Source of the DNA: Kordiimonadales bacterium
GTDB lineage: Bacteria; Pseudomonadota; Alphaproteobacteria; Sphingomonadales; Kordiimonadaceae
Length of the DNA: 64,000 bases
Reading direction: 5' to 3'
NCBI GenBank assembly: GCA_002401685.1
Contig: NVTU01000007.1
Location: forward strand, 23,130 to 87,129
The notes under the pieces: generated by a model
Databases searched by the model: none
What the model saw: the letters and a program-made list of their open reading frames with translations, nothing else
What the model was told of the DNA's origin: nothing
Made by a program: the position numbers and the translations under genes
In this document: positions 1,916-64,000 of the stretch, piece after piece
Layout of the letters: each line of letters opens with the position of its first letter
Position numbering within the stretch: the first letter of the stretch is position 1

Positions 1916-2680
1916 TTAGCCGACCGGCTTCATGTACAGGTGCGTGAAACGGTCACTTTCACCGATGGCTTTGTATTTTTTGCTGTTCGGGCCACTTAGC
2001 GTTGGCGGCAACGAGTAAACACCGCGCGGATGGTCTTTTGTATCTAACGGATTCCTGTTTACGTCACTGGTTTTTACAAGAACAAAACCAGCTTTTTCAG
2101 CCATTGCCCGGAAGTAGCTTTCCTTCACGTATCCGTCTTCAGAAACCGGATCTTGTTCGCCGCCAGCTTCATCACCTGCGTGATCCACAATGCCGAAGTA
2201 TCCACCTGGCTTAAGCATTTTAAACAGATCATCTACATGGTCCTGCGCAGGGCTGTCATAGATCAGGAAACCATGCACCCGGAATACAAACGCCATATCA
2301 ATGGTGCCGTAGATAATTTCGTCGCGGGCTTCATCTGGCCATGATCGGTTGAGCGGCACGGGATAATAGGAGCCGCCTTCGCTGCTTTCTATGAATGGCT
2401 CAATGATACGCCGATACCAGCCGCCCGGCCCGCCTGGATCAATTTCAACAATCTTCATGTCGGACTTAAGGCCCATAAAAGCCAGTGTTTCAGCAGGGTG
2501 GCGGTACTTATCACGGGCACGGTGCCGCGCAGGCCTGTCATCACTGGCAATTAGCTGCTCAAGTGAACGTGCATCACGGGCCGAATAATTGATCTCTGCC
2601 GGACCACGTGCATAAGAATAGGCGCCTACGCCCACAATCAAAACAGCCGCCGTCGCGGCAACTTTGGTAAACAGTTTCAT
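1916..2680 (-). CDS. Exported class I methyltransferase-like protein (COG4798-like)
   Basis: N-terminal hydrophobic signal/anchor, then MKIVEIDPGGPGGWYRRIIEPF degenerate motif I; paralogous to neighbours. Confidence 0.75.
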   Translation of the reverse strand: MKLFTKVAATAAVLIVGVGAYSYARGPAEINYSARDARSLEQLIASDDRPARHRARDKYRHPAETLAFMGLKSDMKIVEIDPGGPGGWYRRIIEPFIESSEGGSYYPVPLNRSWPDEARDEIIYGTIDMAFVFRVHGFLIYDSPAQDHVDDLFKMLKPGGYFGIVDHAGDEAGGEQDPVSEDGYVKESYFRAMAEKAGFVLVKTSDVNRNPLDTKDHPRGVYSLPPTLSGPNSKKYKAIGESDRFTHLYMKPVG

Positions 2681-2686
2681 AAAAAA

Positions 2687-2714
2687 TACCCTCCAACAAT
2701 ATTGCTGGAAGGTA
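2687..2714 (-). promoter_or_regulatory. Hairpin leader overlapping the Shine-Dalgarno of the 1916..2680 gene (homologous to 1814..1843)
   Basis: Minus strand TACCTTCCAGCAATATTGTTGGAGGGTATTTTTTATG; 12-bp stem including G-U pairs, AUAU loop. Confidence 0.6.
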
Positions 2715-2770
2715 CATTTTTTTGCCTAATGCGGCGATTCACTTTAGCGTCATAACGCCTTGAAGCCGCT

Positions 2771-3541
2771 TTATTTTACAAACTTGAAAACAAAGCGGTC
2801 TGTCTTCCGTCGGATAGATGGATCGAACGGCGATTTTGTATGTGTATCCTCAGCGTTCACAAACATGTCACTGGTGCTTTCTAGCTTAAAGCCAGCGGCA
2901 AGAACCTGTGCTTTCAACAGCTCAGGGTCAATCCGGTGCAGCGAGTTACCAGCCTCGGTACCGCTACCTGTTGGAGCAACATGATCTATAACTACAAACG
3001 CGCCGCCTGGCTTCAATGACTTATAAAGTGAAGCAAGAATTGCAGGAACGTCTTCATTCTTGGTCCGCATTTTATGTTTGAAATAATAGTCATGGTACGC
3101 AAGCACCGACAGAATAACATCGACGCTGTTTTCAGCGATCTCAACTTCTTCGGAAACTCCGCGTATAAGAGTTACATTGCTCAGACGGTCTTTATAGCGC
3201 TTATCAATATCTTTCTTTACGAATTCCCAATAAACAGGGCCATTGTGGGCATAAACACGACCATCTTTACCAACAACGCCTGAGAGAATTTCGCTATAAT
3301 AGCCACCGCCCGAATTTACATCGAGAACAGTCATACCAGCGTGAATTCCAGCAAATGCCAGAACTTCTGCAGGGCGACGCAGCACATCGTCTTTCAAATC
3401 GTCAGCGGGTCTGCCATCCTGAGAAAGGGCCGCCAAAACCTGGTCTTCAGGTGCGTGGTGGCCTGCGTTCACAGGCGCGAATACGGCCGAAGCCAACAGC
3501 GTCGTAGCTGCAACTGCTTTAAGTAACGTGGATTTTTTCAT
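2771..3541 (-). CDS. Exported class I methyltransferase-like protein
   Basis: Signal peptide MKKSTLLKAVAATTLLASAVFAPVNAG; GMTVLDVNSGGGYYSEILSGVVG. Confidence 0.8.
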   Translation of the reverse strand: MKKSTLLKAVAATTLLASAVFAPVNAGHHAPEDQVLAALSQDGRPADDLKDDVLRRPAEVLAFAGIHAGMTVLDVNSGGGYYSEILSGVVGKDGRVYAHNGPVYWEFVKKDIDKRYKDRLSNVTLIRGVSEEVEIAENSVDVILSVLAYHDYYFKHKMRTKNEDVPAILASLYKSLKPGGAFVVIDHVAPTGSGTEAGNSLHRIDPELLKAQVLAAGFKLESTSDMFVNAEDTHTKSPFDPSIRRKTDRFVFKFVK

Positions 3542-3758: not shown

Positions 3759-4658
3759 TTACGCAGGTTTGCGGAACTTCAATGTCATACGGTCGCTTTC
3801 ACCGATCGCAGCCATTTTGGCTTTCACAGCTTCATCTTTGTTTGCAGCACCACCAAGCGAAGGCGGCAGGCGCCATACAAAGTCACCCACAACAGGCTTA
3901 TCTTTAGGGTTGGCGTTAATTTCGCTGGAAGCAACAAACTCGAAACCAGCAGCTTTCATCGCTGCAACGAGCGGCGCTTCTTTGATGTAACCGTTAAAAC
4001 CCCGTGCCCAGTCATCATCACTATCAGCTGGTGCGCGGTGCTGTACAATGCCAACAATGCCGCCCGGCTTAAGCGCTGCGTATATGTCTTTCAATGCGTC
4101 AGTACGCGTGCCACCAGTTTCTTCATGCTTAGTCAAATGGTGCATAGCGCGGAACAAAAGGAATGCATCTGCTTTGCCCTTAAGGTCTTCTGGCAGCTCG
4201 CCGAAAAGAAACGCGCCGACTTCCGTTTTGCCTTCACCGCGCCACATGGTCGCGTTTTTAACGAAGCCTTCAGGCCACATGCGCGTACGTTCCATCCGCT
4301 CCGCATTGTCGCCAAAGTCAATCGTACGGTGTTTAATAGAATAATGAACGCCCATTAGGCCGCCCTTATCGCCGAGGTATGGCAGCAGAATATTGCTATA
4401 GTATCCACCTGGCAGAGTATCAATCACAGTCATGCCCGGCGCAATGCCCAGAAACTCAAGCGTTTCTTTAGGGTGACGGAATTCGTAACGTGCCTTTACT
4501 TCATCGGGCTGTGCCACCAGAATCTTCTCAAGTTTGGCACCATCAAATTTCATTTTCTCTTCGCCGTGGCGAATAAAAAGCTCTGTGCTGCTCGCAATTG
4601 TCGTAGCCGAGGCCGCCAAAAGCGCAACCGCAGCAACGGCTGTCAGTAATTTTCTCAT
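3759..4658 (-). CDS. Exported class I methyltransferase-like protein
   Basis: Signal peptide; GMTVIDTLPGGYYSNILLPYLG; ALKPGGIVGIVQHRAP. Confidence 0.8.
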   Translation of the reverse strand: MRKLLTAVAAVALLAASATTIASSTELFIRHGEEKMKFDGAKLEKILVAQPDEVKARYEFRHPKETLEFLGIAPGMTVIDTLPGGYYSNILLPYLGDKGGLMGVHYSIKHRTIDFGDNAERMERTRMWPEGFVKNATMWRGEGKTEVGAFLFGELPEDLKGKADAFLLFRAMHHLTKHEETGGTRTDALKDIYAALKPGGIVGIVQHRAPADSDDDWARGFNGYIKEAPLVAAMKAAGFEFVASSEINANPKDKPVVGDFVWRLPPSLGGAANKDEAVKAKMAAIGESDRMTLKFRKPA

Positions 4659-4887: not shown

Positions 4888-5817
4888 TCATTGTGGCTTG
4901 CGGAACTTCAGCGTCATGCGGTCAGTCTCGCCGATTGCAGTCATTTTGGCGATCCGAGCCGCTTTTACGTCTTCGGCTTCATCGCGGCCGCCCTGCAATG
5001 CAGGTGGTAAACGCCATACAACTTCCGTGTCTGTTGGCTGGTCCTTAGGATTGGCGTTGATCTCGCTTGCTGCCAAAAACTCAAAGCCAGCCGCCTTCAT
5101 TGTTTCAATCACATAAGATTGCTTCATATAACCAGCATGGCCCACGGAAGCCGCTTCACCACGTTCTTCAGAACCACGGTGCTGTACAATACCAACAATG
5201 CCGCCAGGTTTAAGTGCCGTATACATATCTTTCAGGCCAGGCATCAAGAAATCACCTTTGTCCTCAAAGCGGTTCAGATGGTGTATTGCGCGCGGCAGCA
5301 AGAAAACATCAACGCTACCTTTCATGGCATCAGGAAACGCTCCAAGCGCCGTTGCGGTGACAACAGCACTACCTTCGCCCCGCCACTTCTGGCCATCCTC
5401 CGCCCACGTACCGGCCCATGTCTTGCGCTCTTCACGGAATTTCACGGCGCGTTCGCTATCACCCGCGACCCAAAAGTCCCACATGGCGATATTGTAATCT
5501 ACACCAATAACTGTGCCTTTTTCGCCGAGGTAGTTTATGAGTATTTTTGAATACCAACCGCCACCAGGAAGAACCTCAGCAACTGTCATGCCGGGCGTTA
5601 CGCCAAAGAACTCAAGCGTTTCTTTAGGGTTCCGGTACTGATAACGTGCTTTTACGGCATCATCCTGTGCCGCGAGAGCTTTGTCCATCATTGCACCGCT
5701 AAATTTCATCATTTTGCCTTCAGCGTGATGATCCATCGCCGCCGGGCCGTTTGCTACTGCTGCACCAGCAGATGCCATCAAAGCCGCTGCCGCCACGGCC
5801 GTTAATAAATTACGCAT
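4888..5817 (-). CDS. Exported class I methyltransferase-like protein
   Basis: Signal peptide; GMTVAEVLPGGGWYSKILINYLG; ALKPGGIVGIVQHRGSE; closest to the 3759..4658 paralog. Confidence 0.8.
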   Translation of the reverse strand: MRNLLTAVAAAALMASAGAAVANGPAAMDHHAEGKMMKFSGAMMDKALAAQDDAVKARYQYRNPKETLEFFGVTPGMTVAEVLPGGGWYSKILINYLGEKGTVIGVDYNIAMWDFWVAGDSERAVKFREERKTWAGTWAEDGQKWRGEGSAVVTATALGAFPDAMKGSVDVFLLPRAIHHLNRFEDKGDFLMPGLKDMYTALKPGGIVGIVQHRGSEERGEAASVGHAGYMKQSYVIETMKAAGFEFLAASEINANPKDQPTDTEVVWRLPPALQGGRDEAEDVKAARIAKMTAIGETDRMTLKFRKPQ

Positions 5818-8238: not shown

Positions 8239-9039
8239 TTACGCCGCTTTTGTCATAACCATATAGCCAATAACGCCCGCAACAATCAATATAATCACCA
8301 ATAACACAATTACCACCAACCAGAAGACGGAAAGCAACGTGCGCAGGAAGCTGCTGATCCCACTACGTCCCTGCAGGTTTTTATAGGCGAAGAAGAAGAA
8401 GATAAACGTCAGCCCCGTGGCAGCTGCCGAAAACGAATTTATAACCGTCACCATACGTGGGTCGGCGAGCAGAACCTGATAAGCAATATGTTGCGGCAGC
8501 GTCAGCCAAATCGTGCTGGAGACTGAGCAATAAGCCGTAAACACCAGCGCGCGGAAATACGGCATTTTACCGTACGCTGCCCATTTGAAAGCAAGCGCAT
8601 AAAGCGGCACAAAAATCAGAAACGAAACAAACGGGAACTCACCCAGCAAATTCAAGAAGGGCAGCATGAAGCTGTTCGCCTTCTCTGCGCTAGCTTGTGC
8701 CTCTTGCGCGGCAGCGAGTTTTTCTGGGGTATCAGCGTCCACGAATAGGCCAACCTGCTGGCTTTGCTGCATCGCCACCAGCATTTCGTCCATCGGGAAA
8801 AAATAATATAGAACAACCATAACAGCCGAAATCGTCAAAATCATGCTGACCGGGTTTGAAACGCGCGGGTCATGGGCATCCATATAGTCGCGGCAGGCGC
8901 GCCACGGTTGGAAAAGCACCATACGCGCGGTGTATAACACCCCGTGCTCGAAGGATAATCGTTCGCCCAAATTCTCTTTGATGAGCTGCTTGAAATTTTT
9001 CGGCTGCACGGCGGCTTCGCCGTTTTGCTCTTCAATCAT
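8239..9039 (-). CDS. DUF3667-like multi-TM membrane protein, copy 1
   Basis: LFQPWRACRDYMDAHDPRVSNPVSMILTISA plus about 5 predicted TM segments; highly similar to 9645..10457. Confidence 0.75.
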   Translation of the reverse strand: MIEEQNGEAAVQPKNFKQLIKENLGERLSFEHGVLYTARMVLFQPWRACRDYMDAHDPRVSNPVSMILTISAVMVVLYYFFPMDEMLVAMQQSQQVGLFVDADTPEKLAAAQEAQASAEKANSFMLPFLNLLGEFPFVSFLIFVPLYALAFKWAAYGKMPYFRALVFTAYCSVSSTIWLTLPQHIAYQVLLADPRMVTVINSFSAAATGLTFIFFFFAYKNLQGRSGISSFLRTLLSVFWLVVIVLLVIILIVAGVIGYMVMTKAA

Positions 9040-9644: not shown

Positions 9645-10457
9645 CTACGCGGCTTTTGTCACAACCATATAGCCAACAATTATTGCGGTAATTACCATAA
9701 GCACCAACAATACAATCACCAACAACCAGAAGGCGGAAAGTAATGTGCGCAGGAAGCTACTGACCCCACTGCGTCCTTGCAGGTTTTTATAGGCAAAAAA
9801 GAAGAAAGCCAATGTCAGCAACACGCCTGCGGCCGTAATCAAATTTATAACCGTTACCATAAGGGGGTCGCTGAGGAGAATTTGATACGTAATTTGTTGC
9901 GGCACCGTGAGCCAAATTACGCTAGAGACTGAGCAGTAGGACGTAAACACCAGTGCCCGAAAATACGGCATTTTACCGTATGCTGCCCATTTGAAAGCAA
10001 GCGCATAAAGCGGCACAAACATCAAAATACCAACAAACGGGAACTCACCCAGTAAATTAAAGAAGGGGCGCATGGCGCTGTTCATCTTCTCTGCATTAGC
10101 TACCGCTTCTTGCGCGGCGGCGAGTTTTTCTGGCGTATCAGCCTCTGCGATTACACCAGCGTGCTGGCTTTGCTGCATCGCCGCCAGCATTTCGTCCATC
10201 GGAAAAAAATAATACATAACAACCAGAACAGCCGAAACCGTCAAAATCATACTGATCGGATTTGAAACACGCGGGTCATGGGTATCCATATAATCGCGGC
10301 AGGCGCGCCACGGCTGAAACAGCACCATGCGCGCGGTGTATAATAGCCCCTTTTCAAAGGATAATCGTTCACCCAAATTATCTTTGATGAGCTGCTTGAA
10401 ATTTTTCGGCTGCACGGCGGCTTCGCCGTTTTGCTCTTCAATCATGATTATCCCCAC
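9645..10457 (-). CDS. DUF3667-like multi-TM membrane protein, copy 2
   Basis: Near-duplicate of copy 1 (MIEEQNGEAAVQPKNFKQLIKDNLGERLSFEKG); likely start at MIEEQN, a few codons inside. Confidence 0.75.
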   Translation of the reverse strand: MGIIMIEEQNGEAAVQPKNFKQLIKDNLGERLSFEKGLLYTARMVLFQPWRACRDYMDTHDPRVSNPISMILTVSAVLVVMYYFFPMDEMLAAMQQSQHAGVIAEADTPEKLAAAQEAVANAEKMNSAMRPFFNLLGEFPFVGILMFVPLYALAFKWAAYGKMPYFRALVFTSYCSVSSVIWLTVPQQITYQILLSDPLMVTVINLITAAGVLLTLAFFFFAYKNLQGRSGVSSFLRTLLSAFWLLVIVLLVLMVITAIIVGYMVVTKAA

Positions 10458-10809: not shown

Positions 10810-11616
10810 CTATCCAGCATGCCCCACGCCCGTGAAAGTGAGGAACGCGGCGGCCACGCTCACCGCGACCACAACAAAAAACAGCGTACAATAAATCAGC
10901 GCAAGCACGGTGCGTAACAGGCTGCTGGCCACAGTGCGGTCCTGCAGATTTTTATAGGCAAAGAAGAAAAATACGAACATCACCGCCAGTGAGATAACGG
11001 TAAGCGCATTCATGAAAGCCGCAAAAAAGGCCGAAGCGCCAAAAAACCAATAAGCAATATATTGCGGCAGGGTGAACCAAAGGCTGCTGGCGGCGGAGCA
11101 ATAGCCCACAAAAACCAGTGCCCGGAAGTACGGCATTTTTCCGAAAGCGGCCCATTTGAAAACCAGCGCAAAAAGCGGCACAGTTATCAGGAACGGAATG
11201 AACGGAAACTCACTGACCAAATTGTAAAAGGGCCCCAAGGCATTGTTGATCTGTTCCGCGTCGGCCTGGGATTTCTGAGCGGCAGCGAGCTTTTCAGGCG
11301 TGTCTGCTGCAGCAAAGGAAGAAGCATCCTGGCTTTGCTGCATGGCATCCGCCATATCGGTGGTGGGGGAAATATACGCCAAAATCACCAATATCGCCGA
11401 CAGCGCCAAAATCAGTTTTACCGGGCTTGCAACACGGGGATCATGGGCATCCAAATACCCACGGCACGCACGCCACGGCTGGAACATCACCATGCCCGCA
11501 GTATAGAGCACACCGCGCTTAAACGATAAATGTTCGCCAAAGCTTTCTAGAATCATCCGTTTGAAATTTTTGGGCTGAATAGCAGTCGTATCATGGTGCT
11601 TGTCAGGCATCGGCAT
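10810..11616 (-). CDS. DUF3667-like multi-TM membrane protein, copy 3 (divergent)
   Basis: MFQPWRACRGYLDAHDPRVASPVKLILALSAILVILAYISP; same architecture as copies 1 and 2. Confidence 0.75.
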   Translation of the reverse strand: MPMPDKHHDTTAIQPKNFKRMILESFGEHLSFKRGVLYTAGMVMFQPWRACRGYLDAHDPRVASPVKLILALSAILVILAYISPTTDMADAMQQSQDASSFAAADTPEKLAAAQKSQADAEQINNALGPFYNLVSEFPFIPFLITVPLFALVFKWAAFGKMPYFRALVFVGYCSAASSLWFTLPQYIAYWFFGASAFFAAFMNALTVISLAVMFVFFFFAYKNLQDRTVASSLLRTVLALIYCTLFFVVVAVSVAAAFLTFTGVGHAG

Positions 11617-17443: not shown

Positions 17444-17748
17444 TTGCAACCATAAAGGAATTAGTGGTCGGGTGGGCCAAAGAAACTATCTTGGGCTGGT
17501 GACGCAGCTTACAAAAAGATCTCTTTCAAATTATCGTTACCCTTTGCCCGCATCTGCCTAACAGTTTGATTCAAATGCGTGCTGTAACACGCTGATTTAT
17601 CTGTATTTTACTGAAGTCTCGGCCGCCAAAAGCCTCAGGCACCTAAAGCTATACAACCAAAGTGGGCGTTGTTATAGTCGCGGCCTTGTTCCTAGTTTTA
17701 AGGGCCGCTCGGGGGCCAACGCACAGAAAACACTTTGGAGCCTATCTA

Positions 17749-18516
17749 ATGAAACAATCTATCCAACGCATCAGCCGGTCAGTGATTATCGGCGCAGCCT
17801 GCCTCGGCGTTAGCTTTACCGCTTTCGCAGACGGACATTTGGCGAAAGCCGTATCAAACGACGCCCGCCCTGCAGACGAGATTGCACGCGACGCTGGCCG
17901 CAAGCCTGCCGCCGTGCTCGGTTATTTGGGGTTAGAGACCGGCATGACCGTGTTCGAATACGGCGCATCTGGTGGGTATTATACCGCGATTATATCAGAC
18001 GCAGTGGGCGAAAAGGGCAAAGTACATGCGCAGATCGGCGAACGCTTTTGGCCACGTCTGAAAGATACAGTAGGCCCGCGCCACAAGGCACTCGGCAATG
18101 TTGATACTTATGTCGGCGCAATGGGCGACTTTAAAGGCACGGACAACAGCGTTGATATGATGATAATCTCGCTGATCTATCATCACCTGCATTTCAGCGA
18201 AGAAACGGGCGACGTAGCGCCGGGCTTTGCCAACGATATTTACAAAAGCGCGCTCCGCGTTCTGAAACCGGGCGCTGTGTTCGCGATCATTGAACACCAG
18301 GCCCCTGACGGCACGGCGCGTTCCGCCAGTGCAGCGAACCACCGCGCTGCGCTTGAGAATGCGATCACTGATCTTACAGCAGCCGGGTTTGAATATATCG
18401 GCAGTTCCGATTTACTGGCCAATGCTGATGATCCGCAAAACATTCCGTTCCGCGATTTGGCGTCAGGCCGCGATACAAGCCAGCGCTTTATTGCAAAATT
18501 CCGGAAGCCTGCTTAA
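17749..18516 (+). CDS. Exported class I methyltransferase-like protein (fifth paralog)
   Basis: Signal peptide MKQSIQRISRSVIIGAACLGVSFTAFADG; GMTVFEYGASGGYYTAIISDAVG; VLKPGAVFAIIEHQAP. Confidence 0.8.
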   Translation: MKQSIQRISRSVIIGAACLGVSFTAFADGHLAKAVSNDARPADEIARDAGRKPAAVLGYLGLETGMTVFEYGASGGYYTAIISDAVGEKGKVHAQIGERFWPRLKDTVGPRHKALGNVDTYVGAMGDFKGTDNSVDMMIISLIYHHLHFSEETGDVAPGFANDIYKSALRVLKPGAVFAIIEHQAPDGTARSASAANHRAALENAITDLTAAGFEYIGSSDLLANADDPQNIPFRDLASGRDTSQRFIAKFRKPA

Positions 18517-59839: not shown

Positions 59840-60358
59840 ATGAAGAATAAAACAACAATGTTACTGGCCTTGCCGCTTGCGCTTTTTGCTGGGGCCTGCG
59901 CGCCAAATCTATCATCAAACTCATATGACGCCTATTCCGTTGGCGAAGTCCGCCGGGTCGAACGCGGCACGATACAGAGCTACCGCTGGGTCGAAATTAA
60001 TACCAGAACAGGCGTTGGAACCGTAGCTGGCGCGGGCATTGGGGCTGCTGCAGGATCAACCGTAGGAGACGGCGCTGGCGGTGTAATTGGCGCGATTGGC
60101 GGCGCCCTACTAGGCGGGCTTATCGGGTCCTCGATAGAAAAGTCGGCCAACAAGCGTACCGGGTATGAATATGTGATATTAACGGCAAGTGGATCACTGG
60201 TTAGCATTGTTCAGGCCGACCGTGCACCCCTTCCCGAAGGTTCGCCGGTTCTTATTCAGTTCAGCGGGCAGCGCAGCCGTGTGATATTTGATCATAACGC
60301 AATCGATGAAGCTGCGGCTGATCGGCGTTCGAGCGGTGATGGCCAAGGGGGCTATTAA
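59840..60358 (+). CDS. Glycine-zipper outer membrane lipoprotein (SlyB/Pcp-like)
   Basis: LPLALFAGACAPN lipobox; GVGTVAGAGIGAAAGSTVGDGAGGVIGAIGGALLGGLIGSSIE. Confidence 0.88.
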   Translation: MKNKTTMLLALPLALFAGACAPNLSSNSYDAYSVGEVRRVERGTIQSYRWVEINTRTGVGTVAGAGIGAAAGSTVGDGAGGVIGAIGGALLGGLIGSSIEKSANKRTGYEYVILTASGSLVSIVQADRAPLPEGSPVLIQFSGQRSRVIFDHNAIDEAAADRRSSGDGQGGY

Positions 60359-60483: not shown

Positions 60484-61212
60484 TTAACTAAGATATAAAA
60501 GAGTAAGTCCCAGTGTATTGGCAAGGCCGTGCGACAGCGTTAAGGGCCAAATATTACGTTTCAGAAAAACATAGAAAATCCCGCTCACCAATGCGATTGA
60601 ACCAGTAGCTAACGCCCCCCCTATTCCTTGATAGTAGAGATGTTGTTGCCCGAACAAAATCGCCTGCAAAATAATCGCAATCCCGATGGCAAAAGGCGCC
60701 TTTGAAAACAGTTTTTCAAATCGAGAAAGCAAGATTCCCCTGAAAAGCAATTCCTCCGTAAAGCCGCCAATAACCCATGCGATAGTGACCCAGTAAATAT
60801 ACACAGGAAAATTCCCGGGAATATTGGAAAACCTATCCCGGTACCGAGCATCAATCTCCATCGCATCGGAATTCTCGACCAAACCAGAGGAGCTCATTAG
60901 GCCTTCTACCAATTGGCCTAGCACGATGGTTATGACCATAATTGCGAGTGCCCACAGGAGCGTACGGACCAGACTTTTGGGCCTCTTCAACCCAATATCA
61001 GCCCAATTTTCGTTAGCCGCACGCAAGCATAAAGTCGCGACGCCCAAGCTGGCGATTAACGCTACTGGGCCTGCATATGTCCAGAGCCCATCAAAACTGA
61101 GCAACACCGCTTTTACAGTAAACAACGTTCCCAGGACGAAAATTAAATCCCGAGCTGCTGCACGTACAGTGTTTGAGTTCGCTTCTGTATTTGTCATATC
61201 AATATCTCGCAA
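60484..61212 (-). CDS. CPBP family intramembrane glutamic endopeptidase
   Basis: GGFTEELLFRGILLSRFEKLF; SHGLANTLGLTLLY. Confidence 0.9.
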   Translation of the reverse strand: MRDIDMTNTEANSNTVRAAARDLIFVLGTLFTVKAVLLSFDGLWTYAGPVALIASLGVATLCLRAANENWADIGLKRPKSLVRTLLWALAIMVITIVLGQLVEGLMSSSGLVENSDAMEIDARYRDRFSNIPGNFPVYIYWVTIAWVIGGFTEELLFRGILLSRFEKLFSKAPFAIGIAIILQAILFGQQHLYYQGIGGALATGSIALVSGIFYVFLKRNIWPLTLSHGLANTLGLTLLYLS

Positions 61213-61228
61213 AAAAGAATGGCTTGGT

Positions 61229-62197
61229 TCAATTCAAACACCAATTAGGAGGCTGCTTGCCTCTCGGGTCTGCAGGATGAGGGAACAAGATAAATTCGCC
61301 ATAGGATTTAACCCTGGGCTTGTCGCCCATTGCGGTTAAAGCCATTTGGATATCACTTACAATTGCCACAGGTAATTCCAAGATATGTTCCCCGCGCCGA
61401 GAACCGTTTTCTGACGCGAACGCCTCGCCTGCGACTGCCTTCATTTCTACATGCCCGCCAAGTAGCCAACGCACGTCATTTTCTCGAGTAAACTCAGCGA
61501 CGCGGCTCATAGACTTTGTATAGGTCTCTGATAGTCCGCACTGGAAATACAGCCTACCTGGATAGATAACGTCTCCGCTGAAAAGGGCTTTTGTGACAGC
61601 GTCAAACACCATTACGTGCGACGGGTGATGCCCCGGCGTTGGAATGATATCCACGCTACGGCCACCCAGATCAAATGACGCGGTTTGAGCAGGCCAGTTT
61701 TCAATTCCGAAGAAGCCAGCGATATCTTTCGGACTGTGGCCAACAACCACAGTATCAGGACGGTCTTTGAAACTTGCGTCTCCTCCAACATGGTCGCCGT
61801 GCCCGTGAGAGTGCATGACGACCAATTGTATGGCTTCACGCTGGTTCTGCGCGAGCCAAGCTTCAATATGGTCGTCAACAACCCTCCGCAGGTCCACTCC
61901 CCCGGCACCGGTATCGATAAGGAGCACTTTTTCCTGTCCGAAAATAAGATAGAGAAAAGGCGCTTCAAAGGAAGTTTTCAGCGATTGCCGAATAACAAAT
62001 GTATTGGCATCCAGTTTTTGGGAATGAAATGCCGGTTCATTTGCATCTCGCCCAGCGTTCCACGGCTGGAGGAATAGCGTTGAAGCGCCGTATTTTTCAG
62101 ACACTTGAGACTGTTTTTGACCAACAGCACCGGCAGAAGTTAAGCCGAAGGAAGCCAAGATTAGCGAAGTAACGGCAAGCAGTTTAGGGGAAAACAT
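61229..62197 (-). CDS. Exported MBL-fold metallo-hydrolase
   Basis: VVMHSHGHGDHVGGDASF; TPGHHPSHVMVFDAVTKALFSGDVIY; start at MFSPKLLAV. Confidence 0.9.
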   Translation of the reverse strand: MFSPKLLAVTSLILASFGLTSAGAVGQKQSQVSEKYGASTLFLQPWNAGRDANEPAFHSQKLDANTFVIRQSLKTSFEAPFLYLIFGQEKVLLIDTGAGGVDLRRVVDDHIEAWLAQNQREAIQLVVMHSHGHGDHVGGDASFKDRPDTVVVGHSPKDIAGFFGIENWPAQTASFDLGGRSVDIIPTPGHHPSHVMVFDAVTKALFSGDVIYPGRLYFQCGLSETYTKSMSRVAEFTRENDVRWLLGGHVEMKAVAGEAFASENGSRRGEHILELPVAIVSDIQMALTAMGDKPRVKSYGEFILFPHPADPRGKQPPNWCLN

Positions 62198-62231
62198 GAA
62201 CGATGACCTTTGGAGCGTGAATATGTGAGCG

Positions 62232-62735
62232 CTATGATGTTGGACCGTTTTGCAGAGATTTGACACGATCGAGAATAGAAGAGCGACTGAGCGCTTCGAT
62301 TGCAGTTATGGCAACGGTTGGCAGGTCACATGCTATTTCTTCAAAAAGCTCAGCGAAGGCTAGTTCAGCTTCAGCAAGCCGCGTTTTCAATGAATGAAAT
62401 TGTGTCTCGCCTGCGCTGGTAAGCCTCAGAACCTTTCGTCGACCATCTTTCGGATCAGACATGCGCTCTACGACGCCGAATTCAAGCAGCAAATCTATCC
62501 GCTGCGTAACGAGCTGGTGCGGCTGATCAAGTGTTTTGGCGATGTCTGCAGCGGACATAGCGCCTTGCTCACCCAGCAGCAACACAGAGGACACAGCGCG
62601 CGACGGGAACTTAATGGCGACATCTTCCAAAAGATCGTCGCCCTGCGTGACAATAAGATCCACGAGGTGCCGAAGAATATTCCCAACAAACGCATCGCGC
62701 ATGGGATGGTTATTTATGAAAGCGTTGGTAGGCAT
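62232..62735 (-). CDS. MarR family transcriptional regulator
   Basis: MSAADIAKTLDQPHQLVTQRIDLLLEFGVVERMSDPKDGRRKVLRLTSAG. Confidence 0.9.
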   Translation of the reverse strand: MPTNAFINNHPMRDAFVGNILRHLVDLIVTQGDDLLEDVAIKFPSRAVSSVLLLGEQGAMSAADIAKTLDQPHQLVTQRIDLLLEFGVVERMSDPKDGRRKVLRLTSAGETQFHSLKTRLAEAELAFAELFEEIACDLPTVAITAIEALSRSSILDRVKSLQNGPTS

Positions 62736-62780: not shown

Positions 62781-63003
62781 AATAGATAATCCCTTAGCTT
62801 CAACCTGTCAAGCGCTCAAAGCTGAAGCATCCCAGCATTGCCAAAACACCACAGCTTTGGGCCGTCAATATCAATGACTTAGGGGAAAAAAAATCTGATA
62901 GAAAGCCCTCGAGGACCAACATCCTATTTGACAAAATGCCTTATCCAACCAGCTCTAGCTACCAATTCCGTTATTTCTCTCAGCTGGCACTGACGACAAC
63001 AAC

Positions 63004-63031
63004 AAAAAAGGGCAGCCAAATGGCTACCCTT
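63004..63031 (-). terminator. Putative terminator of the 63054..64000 gene
   Basis: Minus strand AAGGGTAGCC ATTT GGCTGCCCTT TTTTG, one mismatch. Confidence 0.7.
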
Positions 63032-63053
63032 CTCAGCGTCCGGCCTTATGGCC

Positions 63054-64000
63054 TTAATCGCTCCCGTCGTCTTCGTCATCATAGATATATTCAATGGACC
63101 ATTTTGTGCAAATATAGTTTCCGCGAACTGTTTCATACCGTAAGCAAGTTCTGATTTCTCTCGGTGGAGTGTAGGTCTCATTCTCATTGCGGTGACGACC
63201 ATTGTTATCATAATCACCCTCATATGGGCCCTCATCGGCATACCGTACCGATCCGTATGACCGATCACCTGACGTGGCATTCGCACCAATGCTTGCGCCG
63301 ACAATTGCGCCTATGGCAGCCCCCGCTCCTCGGTTATGTCCGCCGTCAATCTCAGCGCCGATAATACCCCCGACAATACCGCCAAGCAGAACACCAGCAA
63401 GATTATCGCCACCGCCGTTGTTATAGTAGCCAGCGGAGGAATAATTGCTGCCGCCATGAACATTCGGGCAGTAACTACCATAGTGATAATGGTGATGCCT
63501 GTGGTTCCAACCCCAGTAAGACCGAGCCTGAAAATACCCGCTTGAGTGTGGCCAATGGCCAAAGAACCCATAATCATCGCCGTACCAATAGCCATGCCGA
63601 AATCTGCTGCCAAAGCCGAAACTATAACCACTGGAATAGCCAAGTCCATAATTTCCAAACGAATGACCGAAGCCGCCATAATAGTGGCCAAAGCCGAAGA
63701 ACAGACCAAAGTTATTGTTGTAGCCGCCCCCACGGTGCCCTCTCCTATTGCCTCGATTGTAGCCACGATCACGCCGGTGCCGCCGATCGCGGTCAAAATT
63801 GTTTCGGCCACGGCGGTGATCAGCACGACGTTCTCGTCTGTCCCGTCTATCGATATTATTACCGCGTCGGCTGCTGGTACCAAAAGCCGGTGCAGAATCA
63901 TTATCTCTAACTATTGGAACACGACGTCTACCGCCTTCTCTGTAGCCATCATTCCTGCCACTGTTACGATTACGGGCTCTGCTACGCCGATTATCCTGGC
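63054..64000 (-). CDS. Gly/Tyr/Arg/His/Asn-rich protein with C-terminal glycine-zipper domain, partial (start beyond right edge)
   Basis: Open minus-strand frame without stops from the window edge: ...RRDRGYNRGNRRGHRGGGYNNNFGLFFGFGHYYGGFGHSFGNYGLGYSSG...AGVLLGGIVGGIIGAEIDGGHNRGAGAAIGAIVGASIGAN...CTKWSIEYIYDDEDDGSD*. Confidence 0.8.
   Translation of the reverse strand, partial: QDNRRSRARNRNSGRNDGYREGGRRRVPIVRDNDSAPAFGTSSRRGNNIDRRDRRERRADHRRGRNNFDRDRRHRRDRGYNRGNRRGHRGGGYNNNFGLFFGFGHYYGGFGHSFGNYGLGYSSGYSFGFGSRFRHGYWYGDDYGFFGHWPHSSGYFQARSYWGWNHRHHHYHYGSYCPNVHGGSNYSSAGYYNNGGGDNLAGVLLGGIVGGIIGAEIDGGHNRGAGAAIGAIVGASIGANATSGDRSYGSVRYADEGPYEGDYDNNGRHRNENETYTPPREIRTCLRYETVRGNYICTKWSIEYIYDDEDDGSD

Follow-up and report, generated by a model that had tools for sequence, protein, structure and literature searches.

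SlyB is described as assembling into transmembrane rings that enclose outer-membrane proteins where the membrane is poor in LPS, protecting that membrane (PMC13067283; PMC13082787). In P. aeruginosa, slyB keeps the outer membrane intact during exposure to polymyxin or SDS, and loss of the gene weakens it (PMC7916210). A second described group, the 17-kDa surface antigens, combines a PF05433 glycine zipper with a CREY...C..DG.W domain, and most of its members are short lipoproteins. Analysis of a Kordiimonadaceae contig uncovered an exported glycine-zipper protein with a long basic arm, encoded close to a slyB-type gene. In the best reading, with a probability of about 0.4, this would be an outer-membrane-associated protein that acts with SlyB to protect the envelope, a function that we infer from sequence.

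The analysed window, a stretch of 64,000 nucleotides (G000:C58:23130-87129 of a 2.68-Mb assembly, 77% complete), ends inside the gene. A minus-strand frame runs without interruption from 63998 to a stop codon at 63054-63056 and encodes 314 residues within the window; following the contig past the edge revealed approximately 505 nt more, up to an in-frame ATG at L001:2949. The full gene spans G000:C58:86183-87634 on the minus strand (window 63054-64505) and encodes 483 aa, with residues 170-483 and the stop inside the window (63054..64000). The start context is cggagg-tattg-ATG, in which a GGAGG Shine-Dalgarno site lies 5 nt before the ATG, and nearly all orthologues have a purine-rich Shine-Dalgarno-like site ahead of the start. 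A Sec-type signal peptide is read from the sequence (MLHKFLALLVAAAFLVPSTAVLA ahead of DD). The preliminary description had proposed a missed gene with a glycine zipper, to be abandoned if the frame lacked a start or ribosome-binding site or was frameshifted relative to a real gene; because an in-frame ATG and Shine-Dalgarno site were found, the proposal holds.

Comparison with a sister genome (L033, MAG Kordiimonadaceae NORP254) yielded a dN/dS of 0.08 for the whole gene; by region the values are 0.11 for the basic low-complexity part (residues 24-260), 0.05 for the Gly/Tyr/His-rich part, and 0.04 for zipper plus tail. Third codon positions account for 210 of the 324 base differences. In 500 first-order Markov sequences simulated to match the gene in length and dinucleotide composition, the longest ORF over six frames had a mean of 122 codons and a maximum of 245, so that none reached 483. 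Together these results indicate that the open minus-strand frame is a real gene under purifying selection that is absent from the ORF list. The two ORFs listed in its place (62924..63304 and 63311..63901) are poorly conserved and prove to be shadow frames when judged by dN/dS, by codon-position pattern, and by comparison with L033; the longest shadow frame in the gene measures 199 codons here vs. 110 in L033. The locus shows why an ORF list can settle on shadow frames when a gene of this sort lies at the end of a window or contig.

The gene is probably transcribed alone, because terminator-like hairpins occur both after gatB, which lies upstream on the same strand, and after the stop codon, where an intrinsic-terminator-like hairpin of 13 pairs is followed by a T-run (63005..63034, minus strand; L001:1478-1449). 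A promoter scan was uninformative (5 found vs. 2.4 expected), and a search of 19 upstream regions for sigma-EcfG control returned a single sporadic EcfG-like match.

Other apparently exported proteins are encoded in the window. Five methyltransferase-like paralogues, four of them in tandem (1916-2680, 2771-3541, 3759-4658, and 4888-5817 on the minus strand; 17662-18516 on the plus strand), each appear to have a signal peptide, which would be odd for SAM-methyltransferase-like proteins because SAM is cytoplasmic. A multi-helix membrane protein is likewise present as three tandem paralogues (8239-9039, 9645-10457, and 10810-11616, minus strand).

The 483-aa protein consists, in order, of the signal peptide, a strongly basic region, a Gly/Tyr/Phe/His-rich region, the PF05433 zipper, and a tail with two cysteines, so that approximately 340 residues of low complexity precede the zipper. 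All elements quoted in the preliminary description are present, namely the RR/RGG/NRG-rich stretch, GFGHYYGGFGHSFGNYG..., HHHYHYG, AGVLLGGIVGGIIGAEI...GAAIGAIVGASIGAN, and DDEDDGSD. The basic region is rich in Arg, Asn, Gln, and Ser overall, begins after the signal peptide, and ends in an Arg/Asn/Asp/Gly-rich basic low-complexity stretch (residues 170-260; 63726..63998, minus strand). Its sequence and length vary freely among species, with whole proteins of 276-577 aa, while composition is kept and the net charge ahead of the zipper ranges from +15 to +75 in 25/25 relatives. This pattern, in an exported protein, would suit a structural surface or matrix protein active in biofilm formation or adhesion, with the polybasic Tyr-rich stretch serving as a glue for LPS, exopolysaccharide, or extracellular DNA and the zipper as its outer-membrane anchor. 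We consider such a role doubtful, as the protein has no secretion or surface-anchor domain and the linkage to slyB would be left incidental.

The RGG/NRG/RR-rich composition had also suggested phase separation, and a cytoplasmic, nucleic-acid-binding protein of RGG type would share that composition. Condensate proteins of the RGG type work on cytoplasmic RNA, however, and since this protein is exported, an RNA-binding condensate role is unlikely. The complete orthologues also carry a signal peptide, cysteines and a membrane zipper are conserved, and RNA-binding families gave no match, which together make a cytoplasmic condensate protein very improbable. Nor is the composition unusual in bacteria, as had been thought: exported Gly/Arg/Tyr/His-rich proteins with a PF05433-like zipper also occur in Sphingomonadales and other Alphaproteobacteria (L059, L050, and L052, and, with RcnB, L061 and L062).

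Within the Gly/Tyr/Phe/His-rich stretch (residues 261-365; 63411..63725, minus strand), same-genus alignment defines a candidate metal-binding site, GHWP...G.......W.W...H.HYHYG.YCP (residues 316-347; 63465..63560, minus strand), in which WP...G, W.W, H.HYHYG, and CP do not vary across 17 aligned sequences. Metal or cell-wall binding, as proposed earlier, is therefore possible for this protein given the genus-invariant His/Cys motif and the basic charge, although RcnB is unmatched. A rival explanation would make the protein a periplasmic or surface metal buffer acting like RcnB, in which the His/Tyr/Cys motif binds Ni, Co, Cu, or Zn and the zipper merely anchors. The invariance of H.HYHYG.YCP fits such a buffer, as do the Sphingomonadales zipper proteins that carry a true RcnB domain together with PF05433, and the source genome, itself incomplete, yielded no RcnB protein to do the job. 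We nevertheless consider a metal buffer unlikely: the 483-aa protein has no match to RcnB (PF11776) at E<=10, no metal-transport genes were recognised adjoining its gene, and the motif is missing in most other genera, where the zipper, the cysteine tail, and the adjacency to slyB are all kept.

The glycine zipper, a predicted 2TM hairpin (PF05433, residues 371-410; 63276..63395, minus strand), scores 26.6 bits on the full protein, above the curated cut-off of 24.2, and the domain is matched in 23/23 relatives (E<=0.1). It is followed by the two-cysteine tail CLRYETVRGNYICTKW (residues 454-469; 63099..63146, minus strand), with the pattern R.C..Y...Y.C..W, whose R, C, Y, Y, C, and W residues are invariant across 23 relatives. 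The acidic end DDEDDGSD (63057..63080, minus strand) is present in L033 and variable elsewhere. Two AlphaFold models built from one or two sequences are of low confidence (mean pLDDT 42 and 56), but in both the zipper forms two helices and the C-terminus a beta-hairpin. In the model of the 115-aa tail the predicted helices span residues 2-17 and 24-43 with a low pLDDT of ~57, and the hairpin bearing both cysteines is modelled at pLDDT ~70-74, so the tail is possibly a disulfide-stapled beta-hairpin.

A profile of the zipper plus tail (A1) recovered orthologues in 27/30 Kordiimonadaceae genomes, with full matches of 80-170 bits. Among ~450 further genomes sampled from the order and class, none gave an A1 match above 55 bits, and the matches there fall mainly on the zipper. 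We regard the protein as a Kordiimonadaceae variant among PF05433 envelope proteins. In one genome (G025), two exported Gly/Phe/His-rich ORFs lie between a slyB-like gene and gatB (L104:1477-2184 and 2324-3031, minus strand), one of which has a zipper but lacks a tail, while the other has the tail-like RRCAAFRFQGDRYVCARY but lacks a zipper. This arrangement might represent a split gene or a fusion not yet formed, a reading that is suggestive only because the tail-like match is weak (E=0.13 among 7069 ORFs).

The SlyB-type glycine-zipper lipoprotein gene lies at 59840..60358 on the plus strand, and its product, a true SlyB orthologue, aligns with E. coli SlyB over almost its full length (7ojf_A, residues 14-143; E=1.8e-10). 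In 25/26 genomes having this SlyB the zipper gene is its convergent neighbour, at gaps of 0.1-3.1 kb, and in the remaining genome (G019) the two genes are on separate contigs. Neither gene is found in two near-complete genomes of other genera (G026 and G027), in which only 17-kDa-type zipper proteins remain, and two fragmented assemblies (G008 and G023) contain the zipper gene with SlyB undetected. In the source genome (77% complete), the zipper gene and its slyB-type neighbour are the only PF05433 hits.

Here the pair is separated by genes for a MarR regulator, an MBL-fold hydrolase, and a CPBP protease (60484-62735, minus strand), and the same trio adjoins the orthologue in L033. Because the trio is common to L033 and its genes did not group with those of the other compared relatives, it is probably an insertion in the common ancestor of the source genome and L033.

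Most relatives conserve a larger block, metalloprotease - slyB - zipper gene - gatB - gatA, and since gene order is kept across this whole block, the adjacency to slyB is possibly hitchhiking. Convergent genes have no common promoter, and no regulatory site common to slyB and the zipper gene was found. The protein could accordingly be a surface protein like the 17-kDa antigens, with an unspecified role in the envelope and no functional connection to SlyB, kept adjacent by conservation of the flanking block, gatBA and the metalloprotease included. Several observations make this explanation rather unlikely: the link to slyB persists at four loci where gatB was not found near the zipper gene (L084, L086, L087, and L089), the gene is retained nearly universally in the family, and both genes are absent together from G026 and G027, although this co-absence may be one evolutionary event.

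Outer-membrane protection alongside SlyB remains the best-supported reading because the predicted hairpin is of the type found in SlyB, the zipper protein is exported, and the linkage between the genes is stable. In a mechanism of this kind, the protein would be exported by Sec without lipidation, its two Gly-zipper helices would form a hairpin inserted in the outer membrane, and these hairpins would oligomerise with themselves or with the matching hairpin of SlyB. The C-terminal cysteine tail would fold into a small disulfide beta-hairpin, and the polybasic and His/Tyr-rich stretch would bind LPS phosphates, capsule, or peptidoglycan, or a divalent metal. If the basic arm binds envelope polymers or metal in this way, the protein would stabilise or tether the outer membrane under stress. 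We infer the steps beyond an exported zipper protein linked to slyB, namely insertion, oligomerisation, and binding of LPS, peptidoglycan, or metal.

A more specific proposal, which we view as quite improbable, is a dedicated non-lipidated SlyB partner whose zipper co-assembles in SlyB rings and whose polybasic His/Tyr-rich arm links the rings to LPS or peptidoglycan; if true, SlyB nanodomains would contain, besides SlyB, a lineage-specific component that E. coli lacks. The role of SlyB as an outer-membrane guard was recognised recently and little is known about its partners, for which the zipper protein is a concrete and testable candidate. The interest of the locus lies in its conserved pairing with SlyB and not in composition, and it also illustrates how long basic arms of biased composition are acquired by glycine-zipper envelope proteins.

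When the family profile was compared with solved structures, SlyB 7ojf ranked first, over the zipper only (SlyB residues 61-111; E=0.005). The A1 profile also matched prion protein weakly among PDB entries (E 0.2-1), which we attribute to chance arising from Gly/Ala- and Tyr-rich composition, and PADLOC gave no match to anti-phage defence. SlyB of E. coli (PDB 7ojf/7ojg) and the zipper protein are alike in their PF05433-type zipper, predicted to form a 2TM hairpin in the zipper protein, and in its likely envelope location. SlyB, however, a lipoprotein of 155 aa, has a C-terminal domain of its own, whereas the zipper protein has a 340-residue basic region and a different cysteine tail; with no cysteine before residue 346 it also has no lipobox, and its alignment is confined to the zipper and does not extend over the full length. 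It is accordingly not a SlyB.

Rickettsia-type 17-kDa surface antigens resemble the protein in that a short C-terminal region containing two cysteines and a tryptophan comes after the zipper, and the 17-kDa-type alphaproteobacterial members L050 and L052 have an exported Arg/His/Tyr-rich N-terminal stretch as well. No significant homology of the cysteine tail to the antigen domain was found: no Pfam match of the tail to a CREY...C..DG.W-type domain was obtained and hhalign pairs Y.PP.evRtC.rY with Y....yCREy of the antigens without significance (probability 0.4%). The Sphingomonadales proteins L061 and L062 (390-405 aa) are likewise exported and Gly/Arg/Tyr-rich with a PF05433 zipper, and differ in carrying PF11776 ahead of that zipper; the zipper protein is not an RcnB protein. 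It may nonetheless work like SlyB, RcnB, or the 17-kDa antigens.
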